Assembly (NCBI GenBank): GCA_016794525.1
Contig: JAEUJY010000171.1
Coordinates: 1-48,169, forward strand
Direction of reading: 5' to 3'
DNA from: Myxococcales bacterium
GTDB lineage: Bacteria > Myxococcota_A > Polyangia > Haliangiales > Haliangiaceae
DNA length: 48,169 nucleotides
The first letter of the stretch is position 1. Each line of letters begins with the position of its first letter. Below the pieces are notes generated by a model, which saw only the letters and a list, made by a program, of their open reading frames with translations, made no database searches and was not told the origin of the DNA. This document shows positions 6,462-19,472 of the stretch, in pieces. The position numbers and the translations under genes are program-made.

Positions 6462-7652
6462 ATGCAGATCGCCGAGCTACCGATCAACCCGCGCGCCGTG
6501 ACCTGGAACCGCCGCGTCGAGGCCGTGCTCAACCGCGTCGTCCGCGGCAAGGACCGCGTGCTGGGCCGGCTCGGCCTCGGCGGCCGCGTCGCCGACTACG
6601 ACGACGAGCACTACCAGTTCGTCGGCGGCGCCAACGACGAGATGCGCCGCAAGCACTACGACAAGAGCCTGCGCCTGCTGTGGAAGGCCGAGGCCGCGGC
6701 GCCGTGGTCGACGTTCCACGACCTGGGCGCCGCCGAGCAGGCGCTGCGCGAGATGGCCGACCTCGCGACCTCGCCGGCCGAGCAGCAGGTGCGGGCGCGG
6801 CTGACGTCGGCCGAGTTCAAGGCCGAGCTCGACCGCCACTACACGCCGCGCCAGAAGCAGGCGATCGTCAACGTGCTGTCGGCGATCGGCCACGGCGAGG
6901 CCTACGCCTGGCTGGTGTCGGCGTCGAACCTGCGCGACGTGCGCTCGAGCGGCGCCAAGGCCGCGGTGACGATGCAGGTGCTCGAGGAGGCCAAGCACTT
7001 CGTCGTGATGCGCGAGCTGGTCGCGGCGTTCGGCGTGCCGGTGCCGCGGCAGAGCGCGTGGGAGTACCTGCTGCTCGAGGGCGTGCTGGCCGCCGACGGC
7101 CTCGAGAAGTTCTACGGCATGAACGTGCTGGTCGAGACGATCGCGCTGTCGATCTTCGGCGCGCTGGCCCACCTGCCGGGCCTGGAGATCCTGCGGCTGT
7201 TCCACCTCGACGAGTCGCGCCACACCGCGCTGCCGATGAACTACCTGAAGGAGTTCCCGCTGACCAAGCGCCAGCAGCGCGGCTTCTTCGCGCGGCGCCG
7301 CCGGCTGCGGATGGCGCTGCCGACCCTGCCGCTGATCCTGCTGCTCGAGGAGGACCTGGCGATCCTGGGCATCGACGCGTTCGAGTTCGCCGGCTCGGTG
7401 CTGCGCAAGGTGGCGCACCTGTCGGAGCGCGCCGGCTTCTACCTGCCGCGCCCGGCGCCCGAGATGCTGGCCCGCTTCAACGGGCTGTTCAACCTGTACT
7501 GCCGGCTGACCCGCCCCGGCCACCTGCCGCGCGACTTCATGGACGCCGAGACCAGCAAGGATCGCGTCGTGGCGAAGACCGAGCGGGAGATCTTCGCCAG
7601 CGAGGTCACGGCCGAGGCGCGCCCGCGCGCCGCGGCGGCGGTCACGGCGTGA
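6462..7652 (+). CDS. Ferritin-like diiron protein of unknown substrate
   Basis: A 396-residue protein with a complete ferritin-like diiron ligand set in four helices: Glu146 (GHGEAYAW), Glu176-X2-His179 (EEAKHF), Glu225 (LVETIAL) and Glu251-X2-His254 (DESRHTALP). This E/ExxH/E/ExxH pattern is that of diiron oxidases and oxygenases (R2, AurF-like and desaturase-like groups). The N-terminal 80 residues and the basic segment after residue 265 are not recognised. The start has a G-rich ribosome site (ggggggacc), and a small hairpin (CGGAC-TTCAC-GTCCG, 6439-6453) lies directly before it. An FNR-like palindrome is upstream. It converges on a thioesterase gene with an 11-base overlap. Its reaction cannot be deduced. 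Confidence 0.8.
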   Translation: MQIAELPINPRAVTWNRRVEAVLNRVVRGKDRVLGRLGLGGRVADYDDEHYQFVGGANDEMRRKHYDKSLRLLWKAEAAAPWSTFHDLGAAEQALREMADLATSPAEQQVRARLTSAEFKAELDRHYTPRQKQAIVNVLSAIGHGEAYAWLVSASNLRDVRSSGAKAAVTMQVLEEAKHFVVMRELVAAFGVPVPRQSAWEYLLLEGVLAADGLEKFYGMNVLVETIALSIFGALAHLPGLEILRLFHLDESRHTALPMNYLKEFPLTKRQQRGFFARRRRLRMALPTLPLILLLEEDLAILGIDAFEFAGSVLRKVAHLSERAGFYLPRPAPEMLARFNGLFNLYCRLTRPGHLPRDFMDAETSKDRVVAKTEREIFASEVTAEARPRAAAAVTA

Positions 7653-8211
7653 GGCCGGCGGCCAGCCGGCAGCGCTCGGCGGCGAGCCGCGGCAGCTCGG
7701 CGGCGACGGCGAGCGTGGTGCGGGTGTTGTCGAGCTCGTCCTTGTAGCGGGCGCGCAGCTCGCGGCGGGTGATGGCCTCGAGGAAGCGGCGGACGTCGTC
7801 CTTGGTCTCGAGCTCGAGGCCGGGGACCTCGGCGGGGCGGCCGTCGGCGTCCTTGGCCACCATCGTGAAGTACGAGGTGTTGGTGTGGCGGACCGCGCCG
7901 GTGGCGACGTCCTCGGCGTCGACGTGGATGCCGACCACCATCGACGTGCGGCCGACGTAGTTGACCGACGCCCGCAGCGACACCAGCTCGCCGACCTCGA
8001 CCGGCGCCTTGAAGTCGACGCCGTCGACGCTGACCGTCACGCAGTAGCGGCCGGCGTGCTTGCTGGCGCACGCGTACGCGACCTTGTCCATCAGCCCCAG
8101 GATGATGCCGCCGTGGATCTTGCCGCCGAAGTTGGCGTACGCCGGGATCATCATCTCGGCCATCGTGGTGCGCGAGCGGCTGACCGGGCGGAACGCGGCG
8201 GGAGCGGACAT
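7642..8211 (-). CDS. Acyl-CoA thioesterase (hotdog fold)
   Basis: A 189-residue protein of the BACH/YciA-type acyl-CoA hydrolase family. The hotdog core shows GGKIHGGIILGLMDKVAY, the central helix and active-site region, followed by VDGVDFKAPVEVGELV and GRTSMVVGIHVDAED, typical of this group. It hydrolyses acyl-CoA to free acid and CoA in the cytoplasm. A C-terminal helical tail of about 50 residues (RRFLEAITRRELRARYKDEL) is present. The start ATG at 8211 is 45 bases from the divergent gene at 8257. Chain-length preference cannot be read from the sequence. Confidence 0.85.
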   Translation of the reverse strand: MSAPAAFRPVSRSRTTMAEMMIPAYANFGGKIHGGIILGLMDKVAYACASKHAGRYCVTVSVDGVDFKAPVEVGELVSLRASVNYVGRTSMVVGIHVDAEDVATGAVRHTNTSYFTMVAKDADGRPAEVPGLELETKDDVRRFLEAITRRELRARYKDELDNTRTTLAVAAELPRLAAERCRLAAGLTP

Positions 8212-8585: not shown

Positions 8586-9713
8586 CTAGGGCGCGGGCGT
8601 CGCCGCGGGCGCGGCGGCCGGCTCGGCGTCGACGTCGTCGCTGGCGTCGTCGCCCAGGCCGCGCGCGGCGTCGGTGTCGCGGGCGGCCCACCAGCGGCTG
8701 AGCTGGGGCCACAGCCCGGCGGCGGCCTTGCGCGAGACCACCGCGCCGACGTGGCCGCCGCTCAGGTGGAGCTGGGCCTTGTCGGGCGAGCTGATCCGAT
8801 CGAGCAGCGCGGTGGCGGCGGCGGTGGGCACGATGTGATCGTGGCCGAAGGTCACCGCGAGGGTCGGGCAGTCGATGTCGCCCAGCCGCGCCGGCTTGCC
8901 GCCCAGCCGCATCGTGTCGCGCATGAGCGCGTTGTCGCGGTAGAGGTCGCCGATGTAGCGGCGGTAGCACTCGCCGGGGAACGACACGTTGTCGTTGCCC
9001 CAGCGCTCGGTGGCGAGGAAGCCGTCGAGGAACTCGTCGTCCCAGGCGCGATCGAGCAGGCCGACCAGCTTGGCCAGGTTGGCGGTCGGCTTGAGCATGT
9101 GGAAGCTGGCCTGCATCAGCGGCCACGGCACGTTGCCGAAACCGTCGATCAGCGCGTCGATGTCGAAGCCGGGGCTGCGGGTCCAGGTGGCGAGGATGCC
9201 GCCGTGATCGAAGTCGATCGGCGCGGCCAGCGCGACCAGCGACGCGACGTGGGCCGGCTCGGCGGCGGTGTAGATCGTCGCCAGCGTGCCGCCCAGGCAG
9301 TAGCCGAGCACGTGGCACACGCCGTCGGGGCCGAACGCCGCGGTCTTGCGCACCGCGCGGCCGAGGTAGCGATGGCAGATGTCGTCGAACGTGAGGAAGC
9401 GATCCTCGGCGGTCGGCGTGCCCCAGTCGATGATGAAGACGTCGTGGCCGGCGGCCACCAGGTGCTCGACGAAGCTGCGGCCGGGCGCCAGGTCGAGCAC
9501 GTAGTAGCGGTTGATCAGCGACGGCACGAGCAGGATCGGCGTGCGCCAGCGATCGGCCTTGGCCACCGTCGGCCGGTAGCGCAGCAGCCGCCACTTGTTC
9601 TCGCGCCAGACCTCGTCGGCCGGCGTCTGGCCGACCTTGGGCGGACCGGTCCGCACGCGCTCGGCCAGGGCCATGAGCGACGACAGGATCCCGGGGGGGC
9701 GGCGCGGCGGCAT
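8586..9713 (-). CDS. phaC: Polyhydroxyalkanoate synthase (PhaC, short class III-like)
   Basis: A 375-residue alpha/beta-hydrolase-fold PHA synthase. The modified lipase box GYCLGG places the nucleophile at Cys139; Asp292 (GHDHIVP) and His321 (GGHVGAV) complete the catalytic triad. The length matches class III PhaC rather than the roughly 560-residue class I/II enzymes. It polymerises hydroxyacyl-CoA on granule surfaces. It is last in a minus-strand cluster: PhaE-like gene, acyl-CoA synthetase, then phaC only 5 bases after the synthetase stop. It is paralogous to the synthase at 17576-18646. The C-terminal tail is Ala/Pro/Asp-rich. Start ATG 9713 gives the family-like N-terminus. Confidence 0.88.
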   Translation of the reverse strand: MPPRRPPGILSSLMALAERVRTGPPKVGQTPADEVWRENKWRLLRYRPTVAKADRWRTPILLVPSLINRYYVLDLAPGRSFVEHLVAAGHDVFIIDWGTPTAEDRFLTFDDICHRYLGRAVRKTAAFGPDGVCHVLGYCLGGTLATIYTAAEPAHVASLVALAAPIDFDHGGILATWTRSPGFDIDALIDGFGNVPWPLMQASFHMLKPTANLAKLVGLLDRAWDDEFLDGFLATERWGNDNVSFPGECYRRYIGDLYRDNALMRDTMRLGGKPARLGDIDCPTLAVTFGHDHIVPTAAATALLDRISSPDKAQLHLSGGHVGAVVSRKAAAGLWPQLSRWWAARDTDAARGLGDDASDDVDAEPAAAPAATPAP

Positions 9714-9718
9714 CAGAC

Positions 9719-11329
<1,611 letters not shown>

Positions 11330-11347: not shown

Positions 11348-11638
11348 CTACTGCGCGCTGCGCGCCTCGGCGAGCTGCTCCTCGAGATCGGCGAGCCGGC
11401 TCTCGAGCTGGTTGAGCTTGTGCAGCGACCGCTCCTGGTCGCGGCGGGTCGGCAGGCCCATCGCGGCCCACCACGCGGCGGTCGCCTTGTCGGTGGCGGC
11501 CTTGGTCTTCATCGCCAGCGTCAGCATCTGGCCGGCGGGGCCGAGCACGGCCGGGTTGGCCATGACCTGCTCCATGTACGCCGCGGTGGTGGACTCCCAC
11601 GCGGCGAAGCCCTTCTTCCATTGATCCCAGAGGTTCAT
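11348..11638 (-). CDS. PhaE-like PHA synthase-associated protein
   Basis: A 96-residue protein resembling the C-terminal part of PhaE, the class III PHA synthase partner. The WWAAMGLPTRRDQERSLHKL segment followed by a coiled coil (LNQLESRLADLEEQLAEA) is typical, while the N-terminal MNLWDQWKKGFAAWES is amphipathic and phasin-like. It is much shorter than usual PhaE (about 350 residues), so it may be a minimal subunit or a phasin. Start ATG 11638 is preferred over ATG 11653 because GGAG lies 6 bases upstream of it. It heads the acyl-CoA synthetase-phaC cluster. Confidence 0.7.
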   Translation of the reverse strand: MNLWDQWKKGFAAWESTTAAYMEQVMANPAVLGPAGQMLTLAMKTKAATDKATAAWWAAMGLPTRRDQERSLHKLNQLESRLADLEEQLAEARSAQ

Positions 11639-11654
11639 CGTTCGCTCCAACATG

Positions 11655-11713
11655 TCTCGCGTTTCGGGTGGGGGCCCCACGTCTTGTGGGGGAGGGTCTT
11701 TGCGAAAGACCCT
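11655..11713. repeat. Double-hairpin post-stop repeat, copy 1
   Basis: On the plus strand it begins TCTCGCGTTTCGGGT, then GGGGGCCCC. Hairpin 1 is CCCCAC/GTGGGG (11675-11680 with 11686-11691). Hairpin 2 is AGGGTCTTT-GCG-AAAGACCCT (11693-11713), a perfect 9-bp stem. It ends 6 bases from the stop codon of the minus-strand lipoprotein gene at 11720. Related copies are at 20522 and 29423. Confidence 0.75.
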
Positions 11714-11719
11714 CGTCGG

Positions 11720-12520
11720 TCACAGTGCAAGCCGCCGCAGCGTGGCGGCGGTGGTGAAGTCGTCGGCGGGCTCGCCGGGCCGGCTGGTGGCGCGGCCGAT
11801 CTCGCCGAAGCACTCGGAGAAGAACTGGGTCTGGCGGACGACGACCGACGCGCCGCCGACCGCCGGGGTGCTGGTGACGGTGGTGCGCACGCGCAGCGCG
11901 TCGGTGAACCGCACGTACGGCAGGTGCAGCTCGCCGCGCGCGTCGGCGCTGATCGCGTAGGTGTCGGTGCCGTTGTACGGCAGGCCGCGCAGCGTGCCGC
12001 CGGTGATCGTCGCGGTCTCGGTCCAGCGATCGCCGGCCGCGACCGGCAGGCGCAGCACCGCGACCGGCGCGGCGTAGGGCAGGAGCGTCTTGCCGCCGGC
12101 CGGCGCCTCGTCGTGCGACGCCAGCCCCAGCAGGTACAGGCCGCGGTCGTCGGCGGCGTAGACGCCGTCGGTGGTGGCGTCGACCGCCAGCACGAACCGC
12201 CCGCCGGGGAAGCTGCCGGCGTACCACTGATCGTCGAGCGCGACCGCGATCTGATCGCGCAGCGCGTCGCCGGCGGTGTCGGCGCTCCAGTCCCACTGGC
12301 GATCGGCGCCGGTGCCGCGGCCGGCCAGATCGACCGCGACGTTCTCGCCGACGCGGAAGGTCAGCGGCTGATCGAGCACGACCGGGAGCTCGGCGGCGGT
12401 GAGCGCGCCGTCGAGATCGGGCACGCACGACGCGGCGAACGGCGGCGCGGGATCGCCGACCGGGGTGGCGTTCTCGCCGCAGGCGGCGAGCGCGAGCAGG
12501 GTGCAGGCGAGGGCGCGCAT
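11720..12520 (-). CDS. Predicted lipoprotein, paralogue of the 15125-16030 protein
   Basis: A 266-residue protein with a short signal peptide and lipobox (LLALAACG). The mature part begins SCVPDLDGALTAAELPVVL and ends with a segment containing FFSECFGEIG. The same layout (GCQPDHDGTLTRAELPMM ... FAAECYGTV) is seen in the lipoprotein at 15125-16030, so the two are paralogues within one operon. The start overlaps the stop of the outer-membrane protein gene in TGATG, making this the fourth and last gene of the operon. No known domain is recognised; the aspartates after the first Cys could bind a metal. Function unknown. Confidence 0.75.
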   Translation of the reverse strand: MRALACTLLALAACGENATPVGDPAPPFAASCVPDLDGALTAAELPVVLDQPLTFRVGENVAVDLAGRGTGADRQWDWSADTAGDALRDQIAVALDDQWYAGSFPGGRFVLAVDATTDGVYAADDRGLYLLGLASHDEAPAGGKTLLPYAAPVAVLRLPVAAGDRWTETATITGGTLRGLPYNGTDTYAISADARGELHLPYVRFTDALRVRTTVTSTPAVGGASVVVRQTQFFSECFGEIGRATSRPGEPADDFTTAATLRRLAL

Positions 12521-14166
12521 CAGTAGTGGAACCCCAGGCGCAGGCGCACCAGCTGGGCGGCGCTGGCGGTGGCGCCGGTCTCCGGGTTGTCGAAGGCGGC
12601 GCCCGGCGCCAGCGCCGCGTAGTCGAGCGCGACGCGGAAGCTGTCGCCGCGGTAGGTGAGGCTGGGGTCGACCTCGACGCCGAGGAACTGCGCGCCGCTG
12701 GGCGTCGAGGTCGCGCTCATGGCCCACGAGGCGATCAACGCGACCGAGGCCTCGATGCGGGCGTGGCCGAGGTCGGCCAGCTCGAGCCGCGCGTGCGGTC
12801 GGACGTACGCGGCGTCGGTGACGGTGCCGATGATCTCGCGGAACAGGATGCGATCGACGTGGTAGTCGGGGTGGAAGCGGAAGTTGTCGACGGTGGTGTC
12901 GCCGGGCGGATCGGCCTGCGGGCCGTCGAGGTCGCCGGGGCGCGGGCTGGGCGCGCCGGGGATCGGGAACGCGCCGAAGCCGGGCGCGTCGTCGCCGCTG
13001 GCGACGCCGGCGTCGAGGCCGAGCCGGTGCCGGCCGACCGCGGCCTCGCTCTCGAACGCCAGCCCGAACTGATCGGAGGTGGCCGCCTGATCGAGCAGCA
13101 CGCCGGGCACCAGCGACGGCTGATCGACCCGGGCGTGGGCGTAGCTGCCCTCGGCCTCGAGCCGCAGCCGCGGGCCCTGGATGCGGGCCCAGCCGCCGAC
13201 GCTGGTGGCGGTGAAGCCGCGCACCATCAGATCGTCGGGGCCGATCGTCGACGCGGCGCCGGCGGTGGGCAGGTAGTCGGCGGGCACGTCGCGGTCCTGC
13301 CAGCGGTGCGAGACGAACGCGCCGTACTCGAACGTGCCGAGCCCGGCGGCGGCGCGGCGCAGGCGCGTGGCCGGCGTCTTGACCCGCATCCAGGCGGCGG
13401 TGACGGTGGTGACGTCGTCGGACGGCTCGAGATCGACGGCGCGGGTGCCGCTGGCGCGCGGGCGGAACGGCCCCGACGCCGACAGATCGTAGGCCACCGC
13501 CAGGTAGTGACCGGCGATCGGCGTGACCAGCGCGAGGCGATCGGCCGCGTCGCCGCCGTCGCACTCCTCGCAGTCGCCGCCGTTGGCGCTCATGCCCAGG
13601 CCCCAGTGCGCGCCCATGCGCCCGGCGGCCAGGATGCCGAGCGGCGTCAGCACCTCGCCCCACACCCGCTTGACCGCGATCGCGGTGAACGCGGCCTGGC
13701 CGGGTGACGCGGCGGGCGTCGGCGCGCGGCCGGTGCCGACCTCGGGCGTCGCGCCCCAGCCGAGGTTGTCGAGCAGATCGATCCGGGCCTTGATCGCGAC
13801 GCCGGCGCCCGGCGGGTAGATCGCGAGGTCGGTGCGCGCGCGCAGATCGCCGCCGTCGAGCACCTGGCCGCCGGCGAGCGGCACCGGGAACAGCGGCGCG
13901 CCCGACGGCGTCAGGCCGCGATCGAGGTCGAGGTTGACGAGCGCCTCCTCGCGGATGCGCAGGTAGCCGTGCAGCTCGACGCGCGTGTGCTCGCTGGGCT
14001 GCGCGAACGCGCGCGGCGTCAGCTCGACGCCCAGCGCCGCCAGGTCGGGCACCGCGCCGGGCGCCAGCGTGTCGATCGCGTCGAGGCCGCTGTCCGGCGG
14101 CGGCTCGTCGGCGTGCGCGGCCGGGACCGCGAGCGCGAGCGCGAGGGCGGCGGCGGCGCGGGTCAC
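12520..14166 (-). CDS. Outer-membrane beta-barrel protein (TIGR04551-like)
   Basis: A 548-residue protein with a cleavable signal peptide (ALALALAVPAAHA). Many amphipathic beta-strands follow, such as TRVELHGYLRIREEALVNLD and RLRLEAEGSYAHARV, and it ends in the aromatic RLRLGFHY expected of a barrel C-terminus. Length and the early GYLRIREE region resemble myxobacterial TIGR04551 proteins, an assignment from memory. The cysteine pair in NGGDCEECDGGD may form a disulfide or bind a metal. The GTG start overlaps the upstream hydrolase stop. It is the third gene of the operon divergent from phaR. Substrate or function is unknown. Confidence 0.7.
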   Translation of the reverse strand: MTRAAAALALALAVPAAHADEPPPDSGLDAIDTLAPGAVPDLAALGVELTPRAFAQPSEHTRVELHGYLRIREEALVNLDLDRGLTPSGAPLFPVPLAGGQVLDGGDLRARTDLAIYPPGAGVAIKARIDLLDNLGWGATPEVGTGRAPTPAASPGQAAFTAIAVKRVWGEVLTPLGILAAGRMGAHWGLGMSANGGDCEECDGGDAADRLALVTPIAGHYLAVAYDLSASGPFRPRASGTRAVDLEPSDDVTTVTAAWMRVKTPATRLRRAAAGLGTFEYGAFVSHRWQDRDVPADYLPTAGAASTIGPDDLMVRGFTATSVGGWARIQGPRLRLEAEGSYAHARVDQPSLVPGVLLDQAATSDQFGLAFESEAAVGRHRLGLDAGVASGDDAPGFGAFPIPGAPSPRPGDLDGPQADPPGDTTVDNFRFHPDYHVDRILFREIIGTVTDAAYVRPHARLELADLGHARIEASVALIASWAMSATSTPSGAQFLGVEVDPSLTYRGDSFRVALDYAALAPGAAFDNPETGATASAAQLVRLRLGFHY

Positions 14167-15128
14167 GGCGTCGCCTCGGGGGCGTCGCCGGCGTCGACGG
14201 CGGGCGCGGCGGGCGCGGCCGGCTCGTCGACTGGCGCGCGATCGGCGTCGAGGAACCGGACCAGATCGCGGGTGGTGGCGGTGGCCGCCTCGACCATCGG
14301 GATGTGGCCGCAGGCGGGGTAGACCTTGAGCGTGGCGTCGGGCAGCGTGCCGGCCAGGCGCTGGCCGAAGCGCAGCGGCGTGACCAGATCATCGTCGCCC
14401 CACAGGAGCAACGTCGGCTGGGTGATCTCGTGGTAGCGGCGCTCCATCGCGCCCATGTGCTGGCCGCGCGCGGCGGCGAGCGCGGCGGCGGTGGTGCCGG
14501 GGCGATCGAGCTCGGCCAGCACGTGGTCGACGCGCGCCTGGGTGACGAACCGCGGGTCGTGGTAGGCGAGGCCGATCCGCTCCTCGACGTTGTTGCGGTA
14601 GTTGATCGCGAACAGGAGCTCGCCGATGCCGTCGACCTGGGCCCAGCGGAAGAAGCTGGGCAGCTGCGCGTCGAAGACGTAGGCCGAGTACAGCGCGATG
14701 CGGCGCACCCGGGCCGGCTGCGCCAGCACCATCGCCAGGCTCACCGACGAGCCCCACGAGTGGCCGACGACCGACACCTGATCGACGCCGAGCTGATCGA
14801 GCAGGTGCCACACCAGCGTCGCCTCGGCGGCGGGCGAGTAGTCACCGGCCGGGCGGCTGCTCCAGCCGAAGCCCTTGAGGTCGACCGCGATCACGCGGTG
14901 GTGCGCGGCCAGCGCGTCCTGCACCGGGCGCCACAGGTCGAGCGACGCGCCGTAGCCGTGCAGCATGACCACCGTCGGGCCCGAGCCGACCGCGCGGTAG
15001 CGCAGGTGGACGCCGTCGACGTCGGCGAAGGTGGCGTCGGCGGGCGCGCCGGGCAGCGGCCCGGCGTGGAACGACGGGCACGCCGCCAGCGCCAGGAGCG
15101 CTGCGGCGCACAACGCCCGCAAGGTCAC
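14163..15128 (-). CDS. Predicted lipoprotein alpha/beta hydrolase
   Basis: A 321-residue alpha/beta-hydrolase with a signal peptide and lipobox (LLALAACP), so probably anchored to a membrane facing the periplasm or cell surface. Motifs are MLHGYGAS (oxyanion region), the nucleophile elbow GHSWGS with its Ser, the acid in WGDDDLVTP and the catalytic His in CGHIPMVE. Similar enzymes include esterases, haloalkane dehalogenases and short-chain PHA depolymerases. The C-terminus is an Ala/Pro/Asp-rich tail. The GTG start overlaps the stop of the upstream lipoprotein gene. Shared promoter control with phaR makes a PHA- or lipid-related substrate attractive but unproven. Confidence 0.8.
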   Translation of the reverse strand: MTLRALCAAALLALAACPSFHAGPLPGAPADATFADVDGVHLRYRAVGSGPTVVMLHGYGASLDLWRPVQDALAAHHRVIAVDLKGFGWSSRPAGDYSPAAEATLVWHLLDQLGVDQVSVVGHSWGSSVSLAMVLAQPARVRRIALYSAYVFDAQLPSFFRWAQVDGIGELLFAINYRNNVEERIGLAYHDPRFVTQARVDHVLAELDRPGTTAAALAAARGQHMGAMERRYHEITQPTLLLWGDDDLVTPLRFGQRLAGTLPDATLKVYPACGHIPMVEAATATTRDLVRFLDADRAPVDEPAAPAAPAVDAGDAPEATP

Positions 15129-16030
15129 GGGATCAGCCTCCACACCTCGGCGGCGCTGGTGAACTCGCTGGCGGTCTCGTAGTCCTGCGAGGTCATCGTC
15201 GCGACCGTGCCGTAGCACTCGGCGGCGAAGCCGAAGGTGCGCTTGGTGGTGATCGCGGCGCCGACGGTGCGGGTCAGATCGGTGGCGATGCGCCGCACCG
15301 GGAACGCGCCGAACGGCGTGGTCATCGTGCCGACGGCGTCGACCCGCGCCTGGTAGCGCTCGCTGTAGAAGCTGGCGACGCCGACCGCGAGGCCCGACAC
15401 CGTCGACGACGTGGTCCAGCTGGCGGACGGGCCGAGCGGCGTCGGCAGCAGCGGCACCGGCGGATCGTAGGTGAGCTCGGTGCGGGTGAGGCCGGCCTCG
15501 GGCGACACCACGCCGAGCAGCGCGAGGCCGCTGGCGTCGAGGCGCATGACGCCGAGCAGCGTGCTGTCGATCGACAGCCGCGCGGCGTAGGAGGCGGTCG
15601 GGAACGTGGCGGCCCACCACTGGCCGGTCGGCGCGATGAGCGTGGTCGTGACGTCCTGATCTCCGGGCAGGCCGCCGGCGAGGGTCCAGGTGCGCGCGCC
15701 GCCCGCGCCCTGCTGGCCGGCGCTGTCGATCGTGGCGTCGGTGGCGATGCGGAAGCGCGCGGTCTGGCCCGCCATCATCGGCAGCTCGGCGCGGGTGAGG
15801 GTGCCGTCGTGATCGGGCTGGCAGCCCAGCGCCGCGTCGGGGCCGCCGGCGGTGCCGTCGGTCCCGGCGTCGGCCTCGTCGACCGGCGCGCAGGTGTGAT
15901 CGGCGCGGCAGTAGCCCGAGGGACAGTCGGTCGCCAGATCGCAGCGATCGGGATCCGAGGTCGAGCACGCCGCGGCGAGGGCCAGGACGGCGGCCAGGGC
16001 GAGATGGTGCTGTGCAGCAATTTGGCGCAT
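15125..16030 (-). CDS. Predicted lipoprotein, first gene of the operon divergent from phaR
   Basis: A 301-residue protein with a signal peptide and lipobox (ALAAACST). A small Cys-rich module (CDLATDCPSGYCRADHTC) typical of myxobacterial surface lipoproteins follows, then a low-complexity linker (DEADAGTDGTAGG) and a C-terminal domain paralogous to the 11720-12520 lipoprotein. The ATG at 16030 lies about 16 bases downstream of the start site predicted from a good sigma-70-type promoter (TTGACA-N17-TAGGTT). It overlaps the hydrolase gene by 4 bases. No enzymatic domain is visible; role unknown. Confidence 0.75.
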   Translation of the reverse strand: MRQIAAQHHLALAAVLALAAACSTSDPDRCDLATDCPSGYCRADHTCAPVDEADAGTDGTAGGPDAALGCQPDHDGTLTRAELPMMAGQTARFRIATDATIDSAGQQGAGGARTWTLAGGLPGDQDVTTTLIAPTGQWWAATFPTASYAARLSIDSTLLGVMRLDASGLALLGVVSPEAGLTRTELTYDPPVPLLPTPLGPSASWTTSSTVSGLAVGVASFYSERYQARVDAVGTMTTPFGAFPVRRIATDLTRTVGAAITTKRTFGFAAECYGTVATMTSQDYETASEFTSAAEVWRLIP

Positions 16031-16052: not shown

Positions 16053-16081
16053 AACCTACGCGTCGCCAGCGGCGGTGTCAA
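16053..16081 (-). promoter_or_regulatory. Promoter of the lipoprotein-hydrolase-OMP operon
   Basis: On the minus strand a consensus -35 TTGACA (16081-16076) is followed by a 17-base spacer and -10 TAGGTT (16058-16053). The spacing is ideal. The -35 starts 8 bases after the TTGC-N3-GCAA palindrome at 16090-16100. Confidence 0.65.
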
Positions 16082-16089
16082 CCGGAATA

Positions 16090-16100
16090 TTGCGATGCAA
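16090..16100. promoter_or_regulatory. Predicted PhaR operator (TTGC-GAT-GCAA)
   Basis: A perfect palindrome TTGCGATGCAA lies between the divergent phaR and envelope-operon promoters. Ten of its eleven bases recur upstream of the phasin promoter at 17161-17170. PhaR proteins of other bacteria bind TGC/GCA-rich sites near phaR and phasin genes, so autorepression is expected. No binding data can be seen here. Confidence 0.6.
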
Positions 16101-16112
16101 CATAGCCGTGGC

Positions 16113-16141
16113 TTGATCGGCGGTCGGCAGGGGGCTACCGT
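16113..16141 (+). promoter_or_regulatory. phaR promoter, probably leaderless
   Basis: The -35 TTGATC (16113-16118), 17-base spacer and -10 TACCGT (16136-16141) place the -10 only 6 bases before the GTG start at 16148. Transcription would then begin at or next to the start codon, and no Shine-Dalgarno is present. Confidence 0.55.
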
Positions 16142-16147
16142 GCGCGG

Positions 16148-16834
16148 GTGCCAGTCCTGATCAAGAAGTACGGCAACCGCCGGCTCTACGACACCGGCGA
16201 GAGTCGCTACATCACCCAGGAGGAGCTGGCGGCGGCGATCAAGCGCGGCATCGACGTGCGCGTCGTCGACGCCAAGACCAACGAGGACCTGACGCAGGCG
16301 ACGCTGGCGCAGCTGGTGATCGAGAACGCGCACGCCGCGCGGGCGCTGCCGGTCGGGCTGCTGACGCAGCTGATCCGCCTCGACGACGACGCCCTGGTCG
16401 AGTTCTTCGGGCGCTACGTGACGTCGGCGCTCGAGATGTACCTGACGGCGAAGCGCGGGGTGCAGTCGATCGCGCAGGCGTCGCCGCTGATGCGCGTGCC
16501 GCTGGGCGCGACGGACGCGCTGACGCGGATGTGGATGCAGTCGCCGTTCGCGCAGGTGGCGCAGTTCGGGGGATTCCCGGGCTTCGGGCCGGGGTTTGGC
16601 GGGCCGGGGGGCGGTGGGCCGCCGCCGTCGGCGTACGAGGCCGAGCCGCCACCGCCGGCGGGGCCGTCCGCGGCGCCGCCGCCGTCGGCGGGGGATACGG
16701 GAGATCAGCTGGCGGCGATGCGGAGGGAGCTGGATGAGCTGAAGAAGGCGATGCGCGGGGAGGGCGGAGGCGGCGGGGGTGGCGGAGGGATCGGGAAGCC
16801 GGGGGCGAAGAGGAAGGGGAAGCGGGAGGAGTAG
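16148..16834 (+). CDS. phaR: PHA synthesis regulator PhaR
   Basis: A 228-residue protein. The N-terminal 60 residues (VLIKKYGNRRLYDTGESRYIT) are the PHB/PHA accumulation regulator DNA-binding domain, followed by the PHB accumulation regulatory domain (LLTQLIRLDDDALVEFFGRY). From about residue 145 the chain is Gly/Pro-rich, with a predicted helix (LAAMRRELDELKKAMRG) and a basic tail. PhaR represses phasin and its own gene and is titrated off DNA by PHA granules. The GTG start agrees with the conserved N-terminus, and the promoter -10 ends 6 bases upstream. A phasin, phaC and an SDR reductase follow on the same strand. Confidence 0.9.
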   Translation: MPVLIKKYGNRRLYDTGESRYITQEELAAAIKRGIDVRVVDAKTNEDLTQATLAQLVIENAHAARALPVGLLTQLIRLDDDALVEFFGRYVTSALEMYLTAKRGVQSIAQASPLMRVPLGATDALTRMWMQSPFAQVAQFGGFPGFGPGFGGPGGGGPPPSAYEAEPPPPAGPSAAPPPSAGDTGDQLAAMRRELDELKKAMRGEGGGGGGGGGIGKPGAKRKGKREE

Positions 16835-17154
16835 AGGCGGAGGCGGGGACCGCGGCCGCGACGGCGGCCGCGACGGCGACCGTGACCGCGACCGTGACCG
16901 TGGCCGCGACCGTGGCCGCGACCGTGGCCGCGACCGTGGCCGCGACCGTGACCGTGGCCGGATCCGGTGCCGGATCCGGTTCCGGTTCCGGCGGATCGGG
17001 CACGGGCACGGGCACGGGCACGGGGGCGGGGGCGGGGCGGGGATGGGATGGGGATGGGGATGGTTGCTGCGAGTGCGAGGGGAATTTCCGCGGTGGATCG
17101 TGGGGGGGATTAAGTGCTTTGAATGCTGGTGTTTGGGGTTGTTGGTTGTGGATC
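16835..17154. repeat. Low-complexity hexamer-repeat spacer between phaR and phasin
   Basis: There is no gene here. From about 16855 to 16962 the sequence is built of imperfect CCGTGR/CCGCGA hexamers, followed by GGATCCGGT-type repeats. Next come CGGGCA units repeated four times (16997-17022) and G-rich GGGGCG and GGGGAT runs to about 17060. The open frames across it have repeat-derived composition only (TVAATVAATV). The end of the stretch turns A/T-richer towards the phasin promoter. The same CGGGCA unit recurs at 33471. Confidence 0.7.
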
Positions 17155-17160
17155 AAAATG

Positions 17161-17210
17161 TTGCGATGCACAAAATCGGGCTTGACCGGGGGTGGGGCGA
17201 TGCCTATGGT
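17161..17210 (+). promoter_or_regulatory. Phasin promoter with PhaR-like site
   Basis: TTGCGATGCA (17161-17170) is followed after 11 bases by -35 TTGACC (17182-17187), a 17-base spacer and -10 TATGGT (17205-17210). The layout matches the phaR promoter, where the same site precedes TTGATC-N17-TACCGT. The predicted transcript has a leader of roughly 16 bases with a GGAGG ribosome site. Confidence 0.6.
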
Positions 17211-17232: not shown

Positions 17233-17559
17233 ATGAGCAAGCAAGCCGAGACGAACACCACCGCCCAGTCCACTGCCCAGAAGGCGCGCTCGCCGTTCGA
17301 GCTGCCGTTCGCGATGCCGGTCATGCCGGAGGCGTTCGGGCAGATGATGCGCGACCAGATCGTGCGCACGCAGGCGATCATGGGCGAGCTGGCGAACTAC
17401 GAGGGCGTCGCGATCGCCCGCGCCCGCACCGCGGTCGACGAGCTGAGCCGCCTGGCCGGCGACTCGATCACCTACTTCGGTCAGCTGTCGGCCGAGTGGC
17501 GCAAGCTGTCGATCGAGGCGATGCAGCGCACCGCGGAGGCGTTCACGCCCAAGGCGTGA
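17233..17559 (+). CDS. Phasin-like PHA granule protein
   Basis: A 108-residue mostly helical protein with a polar N-terminus, a hydrophobic Pro-rich patch (SPFELPFAMPVMPEAFGQMM) and amphipathic helices after it (LSRLAGDSITYFGQLSAEWR), consistent with a phasin coating PHA granules. A GGAGGA Shine-Dalgarno lies 8 bases before ATG 17233. It sits between phaR and phaC and its promoter carries a PhaR-like site, as phasin genes usually do. Sequence similarity to named phasins is weak, so the call rests on size, composition and context. Confidence 0.7.
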   Translation: MSKQAETNTTAQSTAQKARSPFELPFAMPVMPEAFGQMMRDQIVRTQAIMGELANYEGVAIARARTAVDELSRLAGDSITYFGQLSAEWRKLSIEAMQRTAEAFTPKA

Positions 17560-17575
17560 GCGAGGACCACCCGGC

Positions 17576-18646
17576 ATGATGCCGACGCCCATCGTCATCG
17601 CGCAGCGCCTGGGGCGCGACCTGGCGGCGGTCGCCGCCGAGGCGCTGGCCGACGCCACCGGCGCCAGCGCGGCGCGCCCCGCGCCGACGCTGATGCCGAC
17701 GCCGCGCGACGTGATCGCCCGCGAGGGCACCGCGTCCTTGTATCGCTTCGTGGGCGCCGGCCCGCGGCGCGGCAAGCCGATCCTGCTGGTGCCGTCGCTG
17801 ATCAACCAGTGGTACGTGCTCGACCTGCGGCGCGGCGCCAGCCTGGTGGCCGCGCTGGTCGACGCCGGCCTCGACGTGTGGTGCCTCGACTGGGGCGCGC
17901 CCGAGGACGAGGACCGCTACCGCACCTGGGACGAGACGCTCGCGCGGCTCGACCGCATGGTGCGCCGCGCGCTGCGCGTCGCCGGCGCCACCCAGCTGGG
18001 CCTGCTCGGCTACTGCATGGGCGGCACGCTGGCCACGATCTACAGCACGCTCTACCCCGCGCGGATCGCCGCGCTGATCGATCTGGCCGGCCCGATCGAC
18101 TTCACCAAGGGCGGCATGCTGCGGACGATGGTCGATCGCCGCTGGTTCGACGCCGACGCGATCGCCGACGCCGGCAACGTCAGCCCCGAGCAGATGCAGT
18201 CGGGCTTCACCGCGCTGCGGCCGACGCTCGAGCTCGGCAAGCACGTCGCGATGCCCGAGCTGGTGCTCGACGCCGCCGCCTACGACGGCTACCGTGCGCT
18301 CGACGCGTGGGCCAGCGACAACATCCCGTTCCCGGCCGCCGCGTACCGCACGTACATCGGCGAGCTGTACCAGGACAACCGCCTGGTCGCCGGCACCCAC
18401 CGGGCGCTGGGCCGCGCGGTCAAGCTCGACGCGATCCGCTGCCCGACCGCCGTCGTCGTCGCCGACCGCGACACGATCTGCCCGCCGGCCGCGGCCACCG
18501 CGCTGCTCGACCACGTCGGCACCGCCGACAAGACCACCCTGCGCGTGCCCGGCGGCCACGTCGGCGCCGTGGTCGGCAGCCGCGCGTCGCGCGAGCTGTA
18601 CCCGGCCCTGGCCCGCTGGCTCGACGCGCGCCTGGCATCGGCGTAA
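17576..18646 (+). CDS. phaC: Polyhydroxyalkanoate synthase (PhaC, second copy)
   Basis: A 356-residue PHA synthase paralogous to the one at 8586-9713. They share PSLIN..YVLDL, the lipase box GYCMGGTLATIY with nucleophile Cys147, Asp299 (ADRDTICP) and His328 (GGHVGAVV). It begins 16 bases after the phasin stop, so both are probably on one transcript from the phasin promoter. The N-terminal 60 residues differ from the other copy, which suggests a different granule partner or substrate range. Start ATG 17576; a second ATG follows directly. Confidence 0.88.
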   Translation: MMPTPIVIAQRLGRDLAAVAAEALADATGASAARPAPTLMPTPRDVIAREGTASLYRFVGAGPRRGKPILLVPSLINQWYVLDLRRGASLVAALVDAGLDVWCLDWGAPEDEDRYRTWDETLARLDRMVRRALRVAGATQLGLLGYCMGGTLATIYSTLYPARIAALIDLAGPIDFTKGGMLRTMVDRRWFDADAIADAGNVSPEQMQSGFTALRPTLELGKHVAMPELVLDAAAYDGYRALDAWASDNIPFPAAAYRTYIGELYQDNRLVAGTHRALGRAVKLDAIRCPTAVVVADRDTICPPAAATALLDHVGTADKTTLRVPGGHVGAVVGSRASRELYPALARWLDARLASA

Positions 18647-18704: not shown

Positions 18705-19472
18705 ATGAAGCTCTCCGACCTCAAGATCATCGTCACCGGTGGCGCCCAAGGCATGGGCGCGCACTTCGCGCAGCGCCTCGCCGAGGCCGGCGCCCAGGTC
18801 GCCGTCGGCGACGTCAAGGAAGACGGCCTGGCCGCGCTGGCCAAGGCCACCGAGGGCCTGCCCGGCAAGGTCCACGTCCGCAAGCTCGACGTGGCCAACG
18901 AGGCCGACGTCGGCGCGTTCGTCGAGTGGGCGCACGGCGCGATGGGCGGCCTCAACGGCCTCATCAACAACGCCGGCATCCTGCGCGACGGGCTGCTGGT
19001 CAAGAAGGACCGCACCACCGGCGCGATCACCAAGCTCTCCAAGGAGCAGTGGGACGCGGTCATCGGCGTCAACCTGACCGGCGCCACGTTCATGGTGCGC
19101 GACGTCGTGGCCAAGATGGTCGCGACCGAGCAGCGCCCGGGCGTGATCGTCAACATGTCGTCGTCGGCGCGCCACGGCAACCGCGGCCAGTCGAATTACT
19201 CGGCGGCCAAGGCCGCGCTCGCGACCAACACGGTGACCTGGATGCGCGAGTTCGCGCCGTTCGGCATCCGCGTCGGCGCGGTCGCCCCCGGCATGGTCGA
19301 GACCCCGATGACCTCGGGCATGAACCAGAAGGCGCGCGACGCGCTGGTGGCCAACATCCCGGTCGGCCGCATCGGCGTGCCCGAGGACCTGTGGCTGGCG
19401 GTCAAGTTCGTGCTGGAGTGCGACTACTTCAACGGTCGCACCCTGGACGTCGACGGCGGCCTGGCGATGTGA
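18705..19472 (+). CDS. Short-chain dehydrogenase/reductase (FabG/PhaB-like)
   Basis: A 255-residue classical SDR. The TGGAQGMG cofactor loop, the NNAG motif, the catalytic Ser in NMSSSARHG and the YSAAK active site are present, and the chain ends LDVDGGLAM. A longer than usual loop (LLVKKDRTTGAITKLSKEQW) follows NNAGILRDG. In a PHA locus such enzymes often reduce acetoacetyl-CoA to 3-hydroxybutyryl-CoA (PhaB), but 3-ketoacyl-ACP reductase or another alcohol/ketone activity cannot be excluded. It lies 58 bases after phaC on the same strand. No strong ribosome site is seen; TACCGA lies 11 bases before the ATG. Confidence 0.8.
   Translation: MKLSDLKIIVTGGAQGMGAHFAQRLAEAGAQVAVGDVKEDGLAALAKATEGLPGKVHVRKLDVANEADVGAFVEWAHGAMGGLNGLINNAGILRDGLLVKKDRTTGAITKLSKEQWDAVIGVNLTGATFMVRDVVAKMVATEQRPGVIVNMSSSARHGNRGQSNYSAAKAALATNTVTWMREFAPFGIRVGAVAPGMVETPMTSGMNQKARDALVANIPVGRIGVPEDLWLAVKFVLECDYFNGRTLDVDGGLAM

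Follow-up and report, generated by a model that had tools for sequence, protein, structure and literature searches.

PhaR regulons have been described in several bacteria. In R. eutropha (Cupriavidus necator), the regulon comprises phaP1, phaP3 and phaR and has in common with the locus described below a degenerate palindrome built on a TGCRNYGCA core; the published operator consensus is YTKNTGCRNYGCANMAR, for which that study allowed at most three mismatches, and PhaR is known as an activator as well as a repressor (PMC12849132). The phaP1 gene has a footprinted site directly upstream of its −35 element and another around the transcription start, and the passages on PhaR consulted mention no envelope operon (PMC12849132). 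In S. meliloti, PhaR (AniA) likewise recognizes a motif with AT-rich arms, WNWDDNYGCRNYGCRNHHWNW, acts at phasin promoters and is titrated by granules; its control of exopolysaccharide genes ties PHB to the cell surface, and none of the genes for PHB synthesis proved to be among its targets (PMC12542648). The PhaR of Bradyrhizobium diazoefficiens governs a broad regulon that differs in gene content from the one considered here, and its phaP1 sites, TGCGACGCACAA and TGCGTTGCACTA, have the same core (PMC10888616).

Here we describe a locus in Myxococcota, contained in a window of 48,169 nucleotides (the whole stretch of DNA analysed), in which a phaR gene, a phasin-like gene and a leftward operon share a site that is very probably a PhaR operator, as predicted from its sequence and conservation. 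The arrangement recalls R. eutropha, in that a phasin-like promoter and phaR are the predicted targets and the site lies directly upstream of the −35 element, but here the upstream site stands alone, with no counterpart of the phaP1 site around the transcription start. Whereas the surface link in S. meliloti runs through exopolysaccharide genes, the one predicted here runs through a lipoprotein–hydrolase–barrel cassette that shares its operon with a PHA synthase gene. The regulatory region and the rightward genes have the following features:

16148–16834, plus strand: phaR (PhaR-A), with a PHB_acc_N DNA-binding domain and a weak PHB_acc domain
16090–16100 (AT-rich arms, 16087–16103), no strand: predicted PhaR box TTGCGATGCAA, common to two divergent promoters; from word rarity, conservation and the published consensus
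17161–17171, no strand: predicted PhaR box TTGCGATGCAC, preceding the phasin-like gene; from consensus fit and conservation
16053–16081, minus strand: predicted leftward operon promoter, TTGACA-N17-TAGGTT; from sequence and −35 conservation
16113–16141, plus strand: predicted phaR promoter, TTGATC-N17-TACCGT; from sequence and conservation
17182–17210, plus strand: predicted promoter of the phasin-like gene, TTGACC-N17-TATGGT; from sequence and a consensus scan
17233–17559, plus strand: small phasin-like protein of 108 amino acids, first gene ahead of phaC1 and phaB; from position and conservation
17576–18646, plus strand: PHA synthase-like PhaC1; from a profile search
18705–19472 (start approximate), plus strand: SDR reductase, PhaB-like; from a profile search

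PhaR-A scores 82 bits against PF07879, the PHB/PHA accumulation regulator DNA-binding domain (cut-off 25), 22.5 bits against PF05233 (PHB_acc), which is under the cut-off of 27, and 91.2 bits over nearly the whole profile of the NCBIfam equivalog TIGR01848 (cut-off 109.45). Its predicted −10 element ends only 6 nt upstream of the GTG start codon (16136–16150), a spacing kept in aligned relatives, and because of this proximity the phaR mRNA is probably leaderless. Positions 16848–17024, between phaR and the phasin-like gene, are taken up by short GC-rich repeats, 6, 12 and 18 bp long, in tandem.

An earlier note on this DNA had drawn attention to a site shared by the two intergenic regions, and a word search of the window does place TTGCGATGCA at both 16090–16099 and 17161–17170. 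The first copy sits in the 117-bp gap between the phaR GTG at 16148 (plus strand) and the start of the leftward gene at 16030. It had been called a palindrome, which holds for the TTGC-N3-GCAA arms of 16090–16100 but not for their 3-bp centre. The three promoters with 17-bp spacers read exactly as claimed. Measured from the 10-mer, the gaps to the nearest hexamer are 11 bp for the phasin-like gene, 13 bp for phaR and 8 bp for the leftward operon. The box centres fall at about −49, −53 and −51 relative to the predicted start sites of the three promoters, outside the −35/−10 core. A promoter consensus scan picked only the promoter of the phasin-like gene and missed the other two, which are supported because they are conserved in relatives. 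The identification of a phasin fared less well. The product of 17233–17559 matches none of the phasin family models in Pfam and NCBIfam, and its relatives are a small, fast-evolving, helical-looking family beside phaC; the gene can be called phasin-like at most, a label that reflects its position and small helical character.

Within the window, word counts were rejected as proof of a shared operator because they are near chance: two matches were found at no more than one mismatch against 2.0 expected, and a 10-mer common to both intergenic regions also arose in 46 of 1,000 shuffles of these two regions. Across the 9.8-Mb genome, TTGCGATGCA occurs four times and its reversed control not at all. 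Two of the copies are those in the window, one lies in a promoter region on contig C37, and the last, inside a long coding frame on contig C96, is taken as a chance occurrence rather than an operator. The bare TGCRNYGCA core is no guide on this scale (646 occurrences against 1,434 for the reversed control), and AT-armed sites alone were therefore counted.

Both boxes fit the published operators, as read by eye. Positions 17158–17174 differ from YTKNTGCRNYGCANMAR at a single position and 16087–16103 at three, within the limit of three set for R. eutropha (PMC12849132). Against the S. meliloti motif, the 21 bp at 17156–17176 show no mismatch and the site at 16090 shows two. A consensus drawn up independently from the sites of relatives, WTKBTGCRNYGCAVMAW, is nearly identical to that of R. 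eutropha.

Conservation was assessed in the Kofleriaceae and the wider Polyangia within the Myxococcota. The 26 phaR-divergent intergenic regions identified as orthologous contain 39 matches to TGCRNYGCA, against 0.82 ± 0.9 expected from dinucleotide shuffles (largest value, 4), and in an alignment of seven such regions the box and promoter elements are invariant while the remaining bases drift. The leftward −35 element TTGACA is present exactly, 8–12 bp from the box core, at 24 of 30 loci; as a control, shuffled words match five of six letters at 2.4 loci on average, and the largest shuffled-word value reflects the same −35 element offset by one. At 13 of the 30 loci a second box lies 22–24 bp further on, overlapping the phaR −35 element; it has been lost in the window and its nearest relative, leaving one box per promoter here. 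Several relatives have an extra box near the leftward start. An AT-armed box also precedes the phasin-like gene in most relatives in which that gene was found; the window and G006, its closest relative, both have it at −71 relative to the start codon. Genomes with this phaR contain 86 strong boxes against 19 control matches, and those without it 30 against 18, in counts that ignore kinship. The ATGGTGCGCCGCACCAT sites found genus-wide about 3 kb downstream of phaR appear to lie within phaC1 and were excluded as operators. The reading of the shared site as a PhaR operator thus draws on the match to published consensuses, on conservation beside both phaR and the phasin-like gene, and on its position between two conserved −35 elements.

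The operon that starts at 16030 consists of seven genes on the minus strand and runs to 8586:

15125–16030, minus strand: LipoA, a lipoprotein with lipobox LAAAC, first leftward gene; from sequence and a model
14163–15128, minus strand: Hyd, an alpha/beta hydrolase with lipobox LAAC and nucleophile motif GHSWG
12520–14166, minus strand: OM, a TIGR04551 outer-membrane protein; from a family profile and a model
11720–12523, minus strand: LipoB, a lipoprotein with a lipobox, paralogue of LipoA (35% identity); from sequence
11348–11680, minus strand: PhaE-like small protein; from a below-cut-off match to the profile of the class III synthase subunit (C-terminal part)
9719–11329, minus strand: acyl-CoA ligase (AMP-binding); from a profile search
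8586–9713, minus strand: PHA synthase-like PhaC2, final gene; from a profile search and gene order

The unit had been thought to end at 11720, but its genes overlap or are separated by short gaps from LipoA through PhaC2, and no intrinsic terminator was found on the leftward strand. In each of the 21 relatives tested, LipoB and the PhaE-like gene either overlap (by 4 bp in six) or are no more than 32 bp apart, and the leftward gene order is maintained at the level of family, order and class. The C-terminal third of the PhaE-like protein matches the PhaE profile with 20.7 bits (cut-off 25.7; relatives reach 24.4), and both synthase-like proteins fall below the cut-off of 365.3 bits for the PhaC subunit model TIGR01836, PhaC2 with 286.6 and PhaC1 with 240.9 bits. 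A search with LipoA, not seeded from phaR, gave full-length matches in 27 genomes; in 26 of these a PhaR gene lies no further than about 3 kb away, and in the remaining one the LipoA gene is on a different contig. The closest relatives of LipoA are in named records of Kofleriaceae-type Myxococcota, and the assembly is placed with these on that basis. Three genomes (G012, G018 and G048) lack the envelope cassette; their PhaE-like and PhaC2 genes adjoin phaR, with the acyl-CoA ligase present in two of the three, and the boxes are retained. In G043, which belongs to another family, phaR and a rearranged PhaE–Hyd unit stand on either side of a box. These cassette-less and rearranged loci indicate that the envelope genes form a cassette heading a PHA operon.

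On this comparative sequence evidence, the leftward unit is the head of a predicted PHA operon and not a separate envelope operon: lipoprotein, hydrolase and outer-membrane genes do stand at its head, as the earlier note had said, but PhaE-like, ligase and PhaC genes follow. Control of the operon by PhaR is less unexpected given this downstream part, and the proposed tie between PHA and the cell surface is already present in the operon's make-up, since the same operon holds envelope and PHA genes. That tie had been put forward as new. PhaR control of this particular cassette does appear to be so, and in the open-licence literature, screened by title and abstract, no paper apparently describes the cassette; the exopolysaccharide genes of S. 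meliloti are nevertheless a precedent for a PhaR–surface link (PMC12542648). The locus would extend the PhaR box to the Myxococcota, with a conserved regulon, and points to a long-lived physical and regulatory union of lipoproteins, a surface hydrolase and an outer-membrane channel with PHA synthesis genes.

Further PhaR-related features lie outside the window:

L037:8325–8915 (contig C100): second PhaR-family gene, 196 amino acids, kept in nearly all relatives
L038:5405–6822 (contig C37): MFS symporter gene (sialate or aromatic-acid:H+ type), immediately preceded by two boxes at a spacing of 23 bp
L038:8471–8487 (contig C37): perfectly palindromic box ATGTTGCGATGCAACAT, which overlaps a possible −10 element and lies at the 5′ end of a KAS III-like gene (PRK06840)

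Boxes likewise precede the MFS orthologues of G006, G010 and G009, and the orthologues of G009 and G023 are located between phaR and the phasin-like gene. The retention of boxes by a gene that has left the cluster is good evidence of their importance. The box at the KAS III-like gene is absent from G014, which has the sole close orthologue, and is left as a candidate for that reason.

The best reading of the consensus match and conservation is that phaR, the phasin-like gene and the leftward operon belong to one predicted regulon, as had been proposed. We consider it likely that the two TTGCGATGCA words are operators at which a PhaR-A dimer represses phaR, the seven-gene operon and the phasin-like–phaC1–phaB unit until PHA releases them. 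Two features weigh against this reading: each promoter here has a single box where 13 of 30 loci have a pair, and PhaR-A scores below the cut-offs of TIGR01848 and PF05233. The box at 16090, between divergent −35 elements, would serve phaR and the leftward operon, and that at 17161 would serve the phasin-like gene, phaC1 and phaB. Without PHA, a PhaR dimer on the box just upstream of each −35 element would hinder RNA polymerase and hold the three units down; between the divergent −35 elements it would abut both. Once PHA forms, PhaR would shift to the granule surface and the units would be released together, in a presumed titration by granules. The envelope genes would be expressed with the PHA genes because they head a PHA operon, and since the box fronts an operon combining both, joint switching of storage and surface genes is probable.

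Repression had been assumed from the outset and is known for PhaR, but it is an assumption here and PhaR also activates (PMC12849132). Given binding, repression seems the rather likelier mode and not more than that, because PHA-relieved repression is known at phaP1 but activation from upstream is known too. PhaR might instead activate some of the promoters, or act with mixed signs, contacting RNA polymerase from about −50, and to this we give a minor but real chance: the box centres lie outside the −35/−10 core, and in R. eutropha phaP3 is activated by PhaR bound at upstream sites, although the footprinted site directly upstream of a −35 element belongs to the repressed phaP1 (PMC12849132) and the second box that overlaps the phaR −35 element in many relatives, 23 bp downstream, suits repression. 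The identity of the binder bears on the scheme in another way, as the C100 paralogue, alone or together with PhaR-A, could read the boxes. Its DNA-binding domain scores higher (100 against 82 bits) and it is present in nearly all relatives, but it has no PHB_acc match, no AT-armed box was seen beside it, and the number of boxes in a genome goes with the presence of PhaR-A. We therefore regard such a role as improbable and favour PhaR-A, which is adjacent to the boxes, has a PHB_acc match (below the cut-off) and tracks them, as the probable binder.

A single box in a common intergenic region cannot by itself assign its target, and the leftward operon might merely share the region with a box that controls phaR and the phasin-like gene alone; the cassette-less loci, which keep boxes while the leftward TTGACA is not conserved, would agree with this. 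The distance of the box from the leftward −35 element, however, is nearly fixed (8–12 bp) in 24 loci, whereas its distance from phaR varies more widely among distant relatives; several relatives have a further box near the leftward start, and the rearranged unit of G043 is also fronted by a box. Exclusion of the leftward operon is thus quite improbable in our estimation. Coincidence between short sequences, which the near-chance counts within the window would allow, is given hardly any credence against the rarity of the word in the genome and its conservation across genomes; the conservation test already refuted it. The reading of the boxes as PhaR-A operators for all three units is the one we retain.

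The predicted products of the cassette suggest what might be switched with storage. OM scores 302.5 bits against TIGR04551, just over the cut-off of 300; the family itself is without an assigned function and is not named in the open-licence literature searched. The OM model resembles AlgE and other beta-barrel channels, and given its middling confidence (pLDDT 63) it is used for the barrel class alone. The LipoA model (pLDDT 83.5) is mostly beta, with YmcC-like lipoproteins as the nearest solved folds, but no function is drawn from this match because it is weak (Z 8–10.7, rmsd over 4 Å). Ten of 23 relatives encode Hyd and OM as a single fused open frame, about 840–930 residues long (for example L043:9946–12525), which argues that the hydrolase acts at the outer-membrane channel. 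We tentatively sketch a route from outside to granule, itself doubtful, in which the surface hydrolase, teamed or fused with the OM channel and aided by lipoproteins of a lipid-binding type, would free acids from external esters; the acids would enter through the channel and the PhaR-controlled MFS symporter, the ligase would activate them and PhaC2 store them, and growing granules would draw PhaR off DNA and so raise uptake. The locus thereby raises the testable question of whether capture of outside substrates is coupled to storage by a granule-sensing regulator.

About 370 bp past PhaC2 and on the same strand lies a thioesterase-like (hotdog) gene (7642–8211), possibly a separate unit.
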